Shown here piece after piece: positions 3,713 through 14,983 of a stretch of 64,000 bases of DNA. How positions within the stretch are numbered: position 1 is the stretch's first letter; each line of letters opens with the position of its first letter. Where the stretch lies: contig JAUHYC010000003.1 in NCBI GenBank assembly GCA_030426685.1, positions 1-64,000 on the forward strand, given 5' to 3'. A program made the translations under genes and the position numbers. The DNA comes from Alphaproteobacteria bacterium. Its GTDB lineage: Bacteria > Pseudomonadota > Alphaproteobacteria > Rhodobacterales > Rhodobacteraceae. The notes under the pieces were generated by a model. The model saw only the letters and a program-made list of their open reading frames with translations. It searched no databases and had not been told where the DNA came from.

Positions 3713-5776
3713 TCAAAGGCCCAGCGCCTTGCGCCGTTCCGCGGCAAAGCCCTGCACCATACGGTCGGCGATCAGCGCCAGAATGGCCATTGCCGCGCCC
3801 GCCGAGATGCCAAGCCCCACATCCGCCTGCCCCAGCGCCAGATAGATCGACTGGCCCAGACCGGTGGTGCCGATCAGTGCCGCAATCACCAGCATCGCAA
3901 AGGCATATAGGATGGTCTGGTTCAGCCCCAGCAGGATCGTCGGCGCAGCATAGGGCGCGCGGACGTCGCGCATGATCTGCCACTCGGTCGCGCCGCTGGA
4001 GATGGCCGCCTCCATCATCTCGTCCGGCGTGTTTACCAGCCCGTGACGGGTGTAGCGGATCATCGGGACGACCGCATAGGCGCAGATCGCCAGAAAGGCC
4101 GAGAACTCACCAATCTGGAACACCATCAGCACCGGGATCAGGAACACGAACAGAGGGATCGTCTGCAGCATGTCGCAGATCGGGCGCACCACTTTCCAGA
4201 CCGGCGACCAGACCGCGCTGGCCAACCCGATCAACCCACCGACCACGGCACAGGAGAACACCGCCGCGCCACTGAGATAGAGCGACAGCAAGGCGCGTTC
4301 CCACAGGCCCGAGACGAGGATGGTGCAGAGCAGCCCCACCGACAGCGCCGCCAGACGCCAGCCGCCTGCGACCCAGCCCAGTGCGGCAGCCCCGGTCAGG
4401 ACAAAGGGCCATGGCAAGTTGGCAATGCCTGTTTCCAGCATGCCGATCAGGATCAGCACCACCAGCCCTCCGGTCAGGTGTCCGCGCCACGCCATCAGCA
4501 AGGCGATAGCGGCACCTATGGCGAAGAGGCCGTAGCTCATGGCGGGGGTCCACTGGAAACCCCATGTAAACGGCAGCACCGCCTGATCCAGACCGATCCG
4601 CAACGGCAGCAGCACATAGAACAGTGAGTTGTTCTTGAGAGCATCCAGCCACGGCCCGTTGGCCTGCGTGAACGCGGTCAGACCGCTGTCAATCGCTTCG
4701 GCCATCGGGTCCAGCACCGTCAGTTCCGACGGGTTCGGCAGCCACGCCCAGAAGGCGGCGGTGAACAGGACGGCAATGCCCAGAATCGCCCAGACAACCC
4801 GGCGGTCATAGCGCTTGCGCTCGGTCGCCAGTGTGCCGCTCATCCGGTCGATGACGACGGCAAACACCACGATGACCAGCCCGGCCGTCAGCGATTCGCC
4901 AAACTGGGCCTTCCGCATGGTCAGCAGGACCTCCCAGCCGATGTCGTTGAAGCCGCCGATGACGGCGGCGATGATCACCATCGACAGGGCGGCCATCAGG
5001 CATTGGTTTACGCCAACCATGATCTGCGTCGTGGCGGCCGGAATTTCGACCTGAAACAGCTGTTGAAACCGCGTGCCGCCGGACATGATGGCGGCCTCTT
5101 TGATTTCGGGTTCGACGCGCTCCAGCCCAAGCATCACGTTGCGCGCCATCGGCGGCGCAGCATAGATGGCCGAGGCGATCAGACCCACCACCGGACCGAA
5201 GCCGAAAAGCAGCAGCAGAGGCGTTAGATAGGCGAATGTCGGCACCGTCTGCATGATATCCAGCACGGCCTGCACAAACGCCTTCACCCGTGGCACCTCG
5301 TTGGCGAGAATGCCAATTGCACCGCCCATGGTCAGCGCCACCGGAACGGAAACGGCGACCAGCGCCAGCGTATTCATACTCTCGGCCCAATAGCCCGAGG
5401 CCAGCACGAAGCTGAGCCCCAGAAACCCGAGCGCTGCCATCGGCCAGCCACCCAGATACCAACCCAGAGCGGTGACAATACCGATCAGGATCGGCCAGGG
5501 TGTGTTGCCCAGCACATAGTTGGCCCAATCCATCGGATAGGTCATCAGGTCGGAAAACAACCGCATTGCCGGTTTGATGCCGTTCAAAAACCAGTCCAGA
5601 AACGCTCCGACCCATTGGGTCGCAGGCAGTTCCCACGCGGCGGGCCATTTGACCAGCCACGGCACCACGCCTTCCAGTGCCAGGCACACCGCACCAACGA
5701 TCACGGTGATCAACGCTGCCTGAGCGCCTGCGGTCAGCCGCGCCTGCTGCGCGGGGAGGTCCGTTACTGCCGTCAT
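3713..5776 (-). CDS. Glycine betaine/choline-type ABC transporter permease, two fused permease domains
   Basis: 687 aa; two copies of the BPD-type EAA loop (EIKEAAIMSGGTRFQQLFQVEIPAATTQIMVGVNQ and EMMEAAISSGATEWQIMRDVRAPYAAPTILLGLNQ). Confidence 0.9.
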   Translation of the reverse strand: MTAVTDLPAQQARLTAGAQAALITVIVGAVCLALEGVVPWLVKWPAAWELPATQWVGAFLDWFLNGIKPAMRLFSDLMTYPMDWANYVLGNTPWPILIGIVTALGWYLGGWPMAALGFLGLSFVLASGYWAESMNTLALVAVSVPVALTMGGAIGILANEVPRVKAFVQAVLDIMQTVPTFAYLTPLLLLFGFGPVVGLIASAIYAAPPMARNVMLGLERVEPEIKEAAIMSGGTRFQQLFQVEIPAATTQIMVGVNQCLMAALSMVIIAAVIGGFNDIGWEVLLTMRKAQFGESLTAGLVIVVFAVVIDRMSGTLATERKRYDRRVVWAILGIAVLFTAAFWAWLPNPSELTVLDPMAEAIDSGLTAFTQANGPWLDALKNNSLFYVLLPLRIGLDQAVLPFTWGFQWTPAMSYGLFAIGAAIALLMAWRGHLTGGLVVLILIGMLETGIANLPWPFVLTGAAALGWVAGGWRLAALSVGLLCTILVSGLWERALLSLYLSGAAVFSCAVVGGLIGLASAVWSPVWKVVRPICDMLQTIPLFVFLIPVLMVFQIGEFSAFLAICAYAVVPMIRYTRHGLVNTPDEMMEAAISSGATEWQIMRDVRAPYAAPTILLGLNQTILYAFAMLVIAALIGTTGLGQSIYLALGQADVGLGISAGAAMAILALIADRMVQGFAAERRKALGL

Positions 5777-6822
5777 GCCTCATCCACCTGCAAGGCTGCG
5801 GCCAGATCGGACGGGTGAACGGTGCCGACAACCTTGCCATTCGCATCCCGCACCGGCACCGGCTCATAAAGCTCCATGCAATGCGCCAGTGCAGCGTCCA
5901 GTGTCATACCCGTGGTCAGGCCGGGATCGTCCGGACCGCATTCGGCCTCATCCCGCATGACCGAGGCGACCTTGGCATGCTGGCCTTTGGCGACATCCTT
6001 GGAAAATTCGCGCACATAGTCATCGACCGGTCGCAGAACGATATCGGTCGATGTGCCGATCTGCGCGATCTTGCCGTCGCGCATGATGGCGATACGGTCG
6101 GCGAGCTTCAGCGCCTCTTGAATGTCGTGGGTGATGAACACGATGGATTTCTCCAACGTCGCCTGATAGCGCAGGAATTCATCCTGCAACTGACGGCGGA
6201 TCAGTGGATCGAGCGCGCTGAACGGCTCGTCCAGAAACCAGATGTCGGGGTTCACGACGAGGCTTCGGGCGATACCGACGCGCTGACGCTGACCGCCGGA
6301 CAACTGCCGGGGAAAGCTGTCTTCGCGTCCTTCAAGACCCACCAGCGAGATCACCTCCTGCGCCCGCGCCAGACGTTCCCTTTTGCCTACGCCCTGCACG
6401 CGCCGCGGATAGGCCACGTTTTCGGCTACAGTCATGTGCGGGAACAGGCCAAAATGCTGGAACACCATGCCCAGCTTTTTGCGCCGCAGGTCGGTCAGGA
6501 CCTTCTTGGACGCCCCCATGACGTTTTCGTCATCCACGCGGATTTCACCACCCGTTCCGGGCAGCAATTGCGAGATACAGCGGATCAGAGTGGATTTTCC
6601 CGACCCTGAAAGCCCCATGATGACGATCAGCTCGCCTTCGCGGACTTCGAAGTTGGCGTCCTGCACGGCGGGTATGAACCCGTTCTCGCGTAGGTCTGTG
6701 GCGGCGATACCGGCGTCATTCCCTGACCGAGACAACGCGTCGGTCAGGGCTTTGTCGGCGCCGGGGCCAAACACCTGCCAGAGATTCCGGCAGGCGATGG
6801 CTGGCGTTTGTACGTCAGTCAC
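5773..6822 (-). CDS. Glycine betaine/L-proline (choline) ABC transporter ATP-binding protein (ProV type); GTG start at 6822 preferred over the 6924 ORF start
   Basis: Walker A GLSGSGKST, signature LSGGQRQRVGIARSL, Walker B DIWFLDEPFSALD, C-terminal CBS-like region; overlaps the permease start by 4 nt. Confidence 0.92.
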   Translation of the reverse strand: MTDVQTPAIACRNLWQVFGPGADKALTDALSRSGNDAGIAATDLRENGFIPAVQDANFEVREGELIVIMGLSGSGKSTLIRCISQLLPGTGGEIRVDDENVMGASKKVLTDLRRKKLGMVFQHFGLFPHMTVAENVAYPRRVQGVGKRERLARAQEVISLVGLEGREDSFPRQLSGGQRQRVGIARSLVVNPDIWFLDEPFSALDPLIRRQLQDEFLRYQATLEKSIVFITHDIQEALKLADRIAIMRDGKIAQIGTSTDIVLRPVDDYVREFSKDVAKGQHAKVASVMRDEAECGPDDPGLTTGMTLDAALAHCMELYEPVPVRDANGKVVGTVHPSDLAAALQVDEA

Positions 6823-6832
6823 GGATGACAGC

Positions 6833-7789
6833 TCACTGCGTTGCCGCGTCGACGACGGGGCGCCATTTGTCTTCGTTCTCGGCCATCCACGCCGCAACAA
6901 CTTCTTCGACCGCGCCACCATCAACGTCGATCGCGCCCATCATCGGCTGCTGATCTTCGACCGCCAACTGATAGTTGGACAGGATTTCATACGCGGCGGG
7001 CTATTTGTCTGCCACGCCGCTCCAACCGGCTTTGAAGATACGCGACGGTGAGAAGTCACAATCGTTCACAGCGTTCGGGTTCGGACCCCAGCATGGATCG
7101 TTGAAACACGCCTCTTCGCCCGCAGGTAGTTCGACGAACTGAACGTCATAGGCCGACATCGCCCAGTGTGGCTGCCAGAAGGCGATCAGCAGCGGCGACT
7201 TGCGCTCGGTCGAGGCGCGCAATTCGGCAATCAGGCCCCCCTCGGACCCGGCAGGCACTGCTTTGAACGGCAGATCAAGTCCGGTCATACGGTCCACGCC
7301 GGGTGTGCCCCAATCCGCCGGATAATCGACCAGACGGCCTCCGGGCAGTGTTTCAGCCGCCGCAAAGACTTGCGCGCAGTCTTTCAGAGCTTCCCACGCT
7401 GGTAGGCCCGGGCACAGATCCGCGACATGTGCGGGATAGGCAATGCCCTCCTTGGCATCGAGACCCAGATCACCGATCTCGACAACAGTGCCTTCGTCGA
7501 TCTTCTTGGCATGTCCGTCAGACACGTTGGACGACCAGATTCCCAGCGTCGCATCGATGTCACCATCAGCCAGCGCCTGGAACTGGTTCATCATGCTGGC
7601 GGTGACATATTCGACGTTGTAACCAGCGGCTTTCAGCATCTCACCCGCCACATGGGTGGTCACATACTGACCGGTCCATTCGTTGATCGCCAGTTTGATG
7701 GGCTCATCCACCGCGCCCATATCGGCGGCATGGGCCGATCCGGCAACGGCGATGGCCAATAGGCTTACACTGAGTTTTTTCTTGGTATT
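6833..7789 (-). pseudogene. Glycine betaine/choline ABC transporter substrate-binding protein (OpuAC/ProX type), interrupted by an in-frame TAG and lacking a standard start codon
   Basis: Track ORF 7001..7759 ends ...KAGWSGVADK*; the same frame continues PAAYEILSNYQLAVEDQQPMMGAIDVDGGAVEEVVAAWMAENEDKWRPVVDAATQ* to TGA at 6833-6835. 5' frame reads (N)TKKKLSVSLLAIAVAGSAHA with AAT where ATG is expected. Confidence 0.85.
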
Positions 7790-8016
7790 GCTCCCTGTTT
7801 TCTTCTGTTCTGCTCTTCGGTCGTGCCATGGCCCGACCCAGGGAAACCGTTGGTGACGTCACCTGTCGCGACATGCACATTTTCGGTCAGAAAAGGAAAG
7901 AGACCCGTTGCTCTCGTCACGACTTTCCATGCCGTTCTGTATTCAGCCCTCCGTCCCGAACCTCTACTGCAGTCATTCACGTATGTCCGGCGTCGTCCGC
8001 CCGGTAAGTTAGGGAT

Positions 8017-14693: not shown

Positions 14694-14983
14694 ATGCTGA
14701 CCATTCAGGAGCCCGCCCGTCAGATTCCCGTGGTCCACAAGATGGATATTTTGGTCGTCGGATCGGGCCCCGCCGGACTGTCCGCCGCCTTGGCCGCCGC
14801 CCGCACAGGGGCTGAGGTCACGATCCTGGACAGGATTGACTGCATAGGCGGCAATATCTCACCGCCGTCGTAGTCGAAGGGTTCAAGCTGGTCGCTGATC
14901 GGCTGATCGAAGAGGCCGGTGTGCATCCGATGCTACACCTTCAATTCGTGACCCCGATCATGGACGGGGACCGGATCAACTGA
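14694..14983 (+). pseudogene. Remnant of an FAD-dependent oxidoreductase
   Basis: MLTIQEPARQIPVVHKMDILVVGSGPAGLSAALAAARTGAEVTILDRIDCIGGNISPPS*, then in another frame VEGFKLVADRLIEEAGVHPMLHLQFVTPIMDGDRIN*; too short and frameshifted relative to an intact family member. Confidence 0.7.

Follow-up and report, generated by a model that had tools for sequence, protein, structure and literature searches.

The best solved relative of the binding protein considered here is PDB 4xz6 (E 4e-55), a distant homologue that we take to be TmoX, the TMAO-binding protein, and whose entry is titled glycine betaine/proline-binding protein. DmpX, the DMSP-binding protein whose structure is probably PDB 7yle, falls within the same PF04069 superfamily and is a much weaker match (E 2e-7). 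Moreover, in DmpXWV the membrane subunit follows the binding protein and the ATPase comes last (PMC10030565), in contrast to the binding protein, ATPase, permease order of the operon described here; sequence distance and gene order both speak against a relation to DmpX, which is rejected.

Closer counterparts are intact Ruegeria orthologues that are 94% identical, for example that of Ruegeria sp. ANG-R (L035), together with one in R. pomeroyi (L073); their operons likewise run from the binding protein through the ATPase to the fused permease, and genomes G007 and G032 have the same chromosomal neighbours as the operon found here. By elimination among the four OpuAC proteins in PMC10030565, the orthologue in R. 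pomeroyi probably corresponds to SPO1131 of strain DSS-3, a protein that did not bind DMSP (PMC10030565) and that is described only as a betaine-choline-carnitine-type ABC transporter (PMC9938194). The host genome studied here, that of a marine bacterium, itself belongs to Ruegeria, and its copy of the operon lies on the minus strand of the window, that is, the whole 64,000-nucleotide stretch that was analysed. Whereas the orthologues keep an ATG start and a TGG codon, the gene in the window has AAG and TAG in their place, and it is very probably a young, recently formed unitary pseudogene with two disabling substitutions, both read from one assembly of one strain.

Lesions in the binding-protein gene

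The features of the locus are the following.

3713..5776, minus strand: fused two-domain permease subunit of 687 aa, intact, with no relaxation of selection evident
5773..6822, minus strand: ATPase subunit beginning at GTG, its frame unbroken and its Walker A, signature and Walker B motifs preserved
6833..7783, minus strand: OpuAC-family (PF04069) gene for a periplasmic substrate-binding protein, very probably a pseudogene, measured from the lost start to the original TGA
6835..6833, minus strand: original stop TGA, 55 codons lying between the TAG and this codon
7003..7001, minus strand: internal TAG, TGG (Trp) in 80/80 relatives of the named-genome scan
7757..7759, minus strand: TTG, sole in-frame standard start left, which falls within the signal peptide and has no visible ribosome-binding site
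7783..7781, minus strand: AAG replacing the conserved ATG start, the second lesion, from comparison with relatives
7791..7795, minus strand: intact GGGAG ribosome-binding site, 7 bases ahead of the former start

The read-through product matches PF04069 OpuAC over residues 24-298, a span that includes the TAG, with a score of 175 bits against a Pfam gathering cut-off of 21.2; its score with the choline-binding ChoX model TIGR03414 (NCBIfam), 62.3 bits, lies far below the cut-off of 379. The "betaine/choline" label given by the first-pass annotation thus holds only at the superfamily level. The same annotation had correctly described the neighbouring ATPase and fused permease frames as intact, and the in-frame TAG that it reported, followed by 55 codons, is present in the window letters exactly as claimed.

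Read on the minus strand, the gene runs ...GVADK-TAG-PAAYEILSNYQ...DAATQ-TGA, its frame being open on both sides of the TAG. In tblastn comparisons of intact orthologues with the window, the alignment crosses the stop without gaps and a Trp faces the TAG; the aligned codon is TGG in every one of the 80 relatives that the named-genome scan supplied, none of which has an internal stop (2 of the 80 rows are shifted by an indel, with the same KWPAA or TWPAA motif present). This Trp is also retained in PDB 4xz6 and by a paralogue, 41% identical, within this genome. Since Trp occupies the site in all relatives, the sequences point most simply to a TGG to TAG change, rather than to one from the Tyr codons TAT or TAC that had been put forward as the source; nor do the orthologues end naturally at ...GVADK, for their alignment shows the Trp codon there and a frame that continues. 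Chance is excluded as the origin of an in-frame TAG with open flanks, because the gene occurs in 43 of 54 Ruegeria genomes (at identities of at least 86%) and the stop in this one only, none having been found in the 42 others that carry the gene. A nonsense mutation, among the options initially listed, is the one borne out, and it is private to this genome among the Ruegeria examined.

What the first-pass annotation overlooked, having seen the stop, is the loss of the start codon from ATG to AAG. In the relatives the gene begins ATG AAA AAA CTG AGT GTA AGC, shortly downstream of GGGAG, and the ATG is found in all Ruegeria among the 80; the corresponding letters of the window are GGGAG CAATACC AAG AAA AAA CTC AGT GTA AGC. 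AAG is a very poor initiator codon, and a search of the binding-protein frame for a usable replacement start found none. The start-codon change, one substitution, would alone be enough to halt production of the binding protein, and the change of the conserved Trp TGG to TAG, 55 codons before the end, would be a second substitution disabling by itself. Both lesions are found here only and are absent from the orthologues examined; within the draft genome (103 contigs, 95.9% completeness) there is no intact copy elsewhere, the next homologue being the 41%-identical one on contig C89.

Selection and timing

Purifying selection on the gene is relaxed, as judged with moderate power. Eight private changes fall at columns that are invariant in 41 other Ruegeria sequences, namely seven amino-acid changes (H41Y, G64S, E82G, Y92H, T143A, A164V and A184G, in alignment numbering) and the stop, compared with at most three in each of the other Ruegeria sequences; E82G replaces Glu with Gly within the conserved LEIW motif. 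Branch counts give a private missense:synonymous ratio of 13:10 for the gene. The G007 and G032 branches give 6:38 (Fisher p = 0.0004), and the remainder of this genome's window gives 310:686 (p = 0.013). The 13:10 probably counts the two lesion codons, AAG and TAG, as well, which makes the p-values somewhat flattering. The inactivation is likely to be recent, because the ratio observed in this count is near 1.2, whereas neutrality would bring it near 10; as a rough estimate, the phase of neutral evolution would then span about one tenth of the terminal branch at most.

The two neighbouring genes differ in this respect. The ATPase has a private missense:synonymous count of 10:10 and five private changes where the other sequences are invariant (F68I, L142R, I221Y, V255A and P260S), and the permease has a count of 5:25 and no private changes at invariant columns. 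So unrelaxed a permease would be unexpected had the importer been dead for long, which is a point against the pseudogene reading.

Across the whole window (1-64000), private missense:synonymous is 323:696 in this genome, 119:604 in G007 and 175:710 in G032, a missense ratio about twice that of either relative and with no matching excess of nonsense; it is possible that lineage-wide relaxed selection lies behind the raised ratio. A search of the window against Rfam gave no matches.

Decay was assessed over the 179 kb contig by comparison with the orthologous regions of G032, G007 and G003, and two clearly broken genes were found: the binding-protein gene and the remnant of an FAD-dependent oxidoreductase (PF12831) at 14694-14980. 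The latter, which carries deletions and a stop, can be recognised only in parts that match the 498-residue G007 ORF at residues 1-99 and 149-183, and the 2OG-Fe(II) oxygenase gene that adjoins it in relatives is absent here. Further stops or frameshifts at 66361, 73140/73227, 107717, 158187 and 168122/167969, one of them shared with G007, were rejected on inspection as antisense or over-extended reference ORFs, and odd start codons at 87537 and 39103, from the contig-wide check, were provisionally put down to over-extended reference ORFs. With only two clearly broken genes on the contig, general genome decay was rejected, though missense is raised across the window.

Error, read-through and truncation

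That the real gene is intact and the lesions are errors of sequencing or assembly might be entertained for a draft of this kind, in 103 contigs, and is nonetheless improbable. Such an error would have to account for two independent disabling substitutions within one gene, the only one with a clear nonsense mutation out of about 153 that could be tested on the 179 kb contig, and the further private missense changes are consistent with decay. Random error on a scale that explained the window's excess of missense should also have produced about 6-7 nonsense codons, where one is seen (P about 0.01). The loss of the start codon in addition to the stop disfavours error as the whole story, and it disfavours amber read-through too. 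The 55 codons past the TAG do form an open and well conserved frame, as would be expected if suppression or recoding of TAG yielded a full-length protein, but neither could repair a lost start, and the relatives have no TAG at the site. The amber suppressor tRNA that had been proposed as something to look for did not turn up, no CUA anticodon being present among the 44 tRNA genes found, a set that is incomplete in having neither tRNA-Tyr nor tRNA-Ile (probably through gaps in the draft assembly or overlooked weak matches). A gene for release factor 1 (prfA) scores above the cut-off, and of 129 genes on the contig, 22 use TAG as their stop at the point where the orthologue also terminates; we give read-through or recoding almost no credence.

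Equally hard to sustain is a shorter functional protein running from the TTG at 7759 to the TAG, or an importer that works with a truncated receptor. The in-frame TTG exists and the permease is still conserved, but initiation within the signal peptide would forfeit its positively charged N-terminus and has no ribosome-binding site ahead of it, and the truncation costs 55 residues. The Trp replaced by the stop has persisted as far out as TmoX and the paralogue of 41% identity, and the private E82G in the LEIW motif is a further point against such a product. Recent formation of a pseudogene by two substitutions thus stands as the preferred reading, and it carries a caution for annotation: an automatic caller could wrongly predict a truncated protein of 252 residues, begun at the spurious TTG, or, just as wrongly, a functional betaine/choline importer.

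Fate of the importer

If the gene is indeed lost, a functional binding protein would no longer be made, and the three-gene quaternary-amine-type ABC importer would stand idle or, with lower probability, rely on another binding protein. The genome has three further OpuAC-type importers, all intact and with their own ATPase and permease genes, one on C89 and two on C103, and the loss may be tolerated because these members of the same family remain. It is very unlikely, though conceivable, that the permease and ATPase are still in use and fed by the binding protein of one of these three operons; were this so, loss of the dedicated receptor would have altered the substrate of the importer rather than killed it.

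The operon on C89 (locus L122:182-7633) is TmoX-like, its binding protein being the one 41% identical to the pseudogene, and it adjoins dimethylglycine dehydrogenase-like and aminoglycoside/choline kinase-like genes (named by eye), in what is possibly a cluster for the uptake and breakdown of methylated amines.

To judge from gene content, the importer is dispensable in Ruegeria, because 11 of 54 genomes do without the operon altogether, having neither the binding protein nor the orthologous permease. In summary, partial loss is possible, besides loss of the whole unit, for an importer that is common among Ruegeria, and the locus offers a clean case of recent gene loss that is in itself an ordinary finding: unitary bacterial pseudogenes likewise combine loss of the start, a nonsense codon and an excess of missense changes in an otherwise syntenic operon, and nothing here is unusual by comparison.
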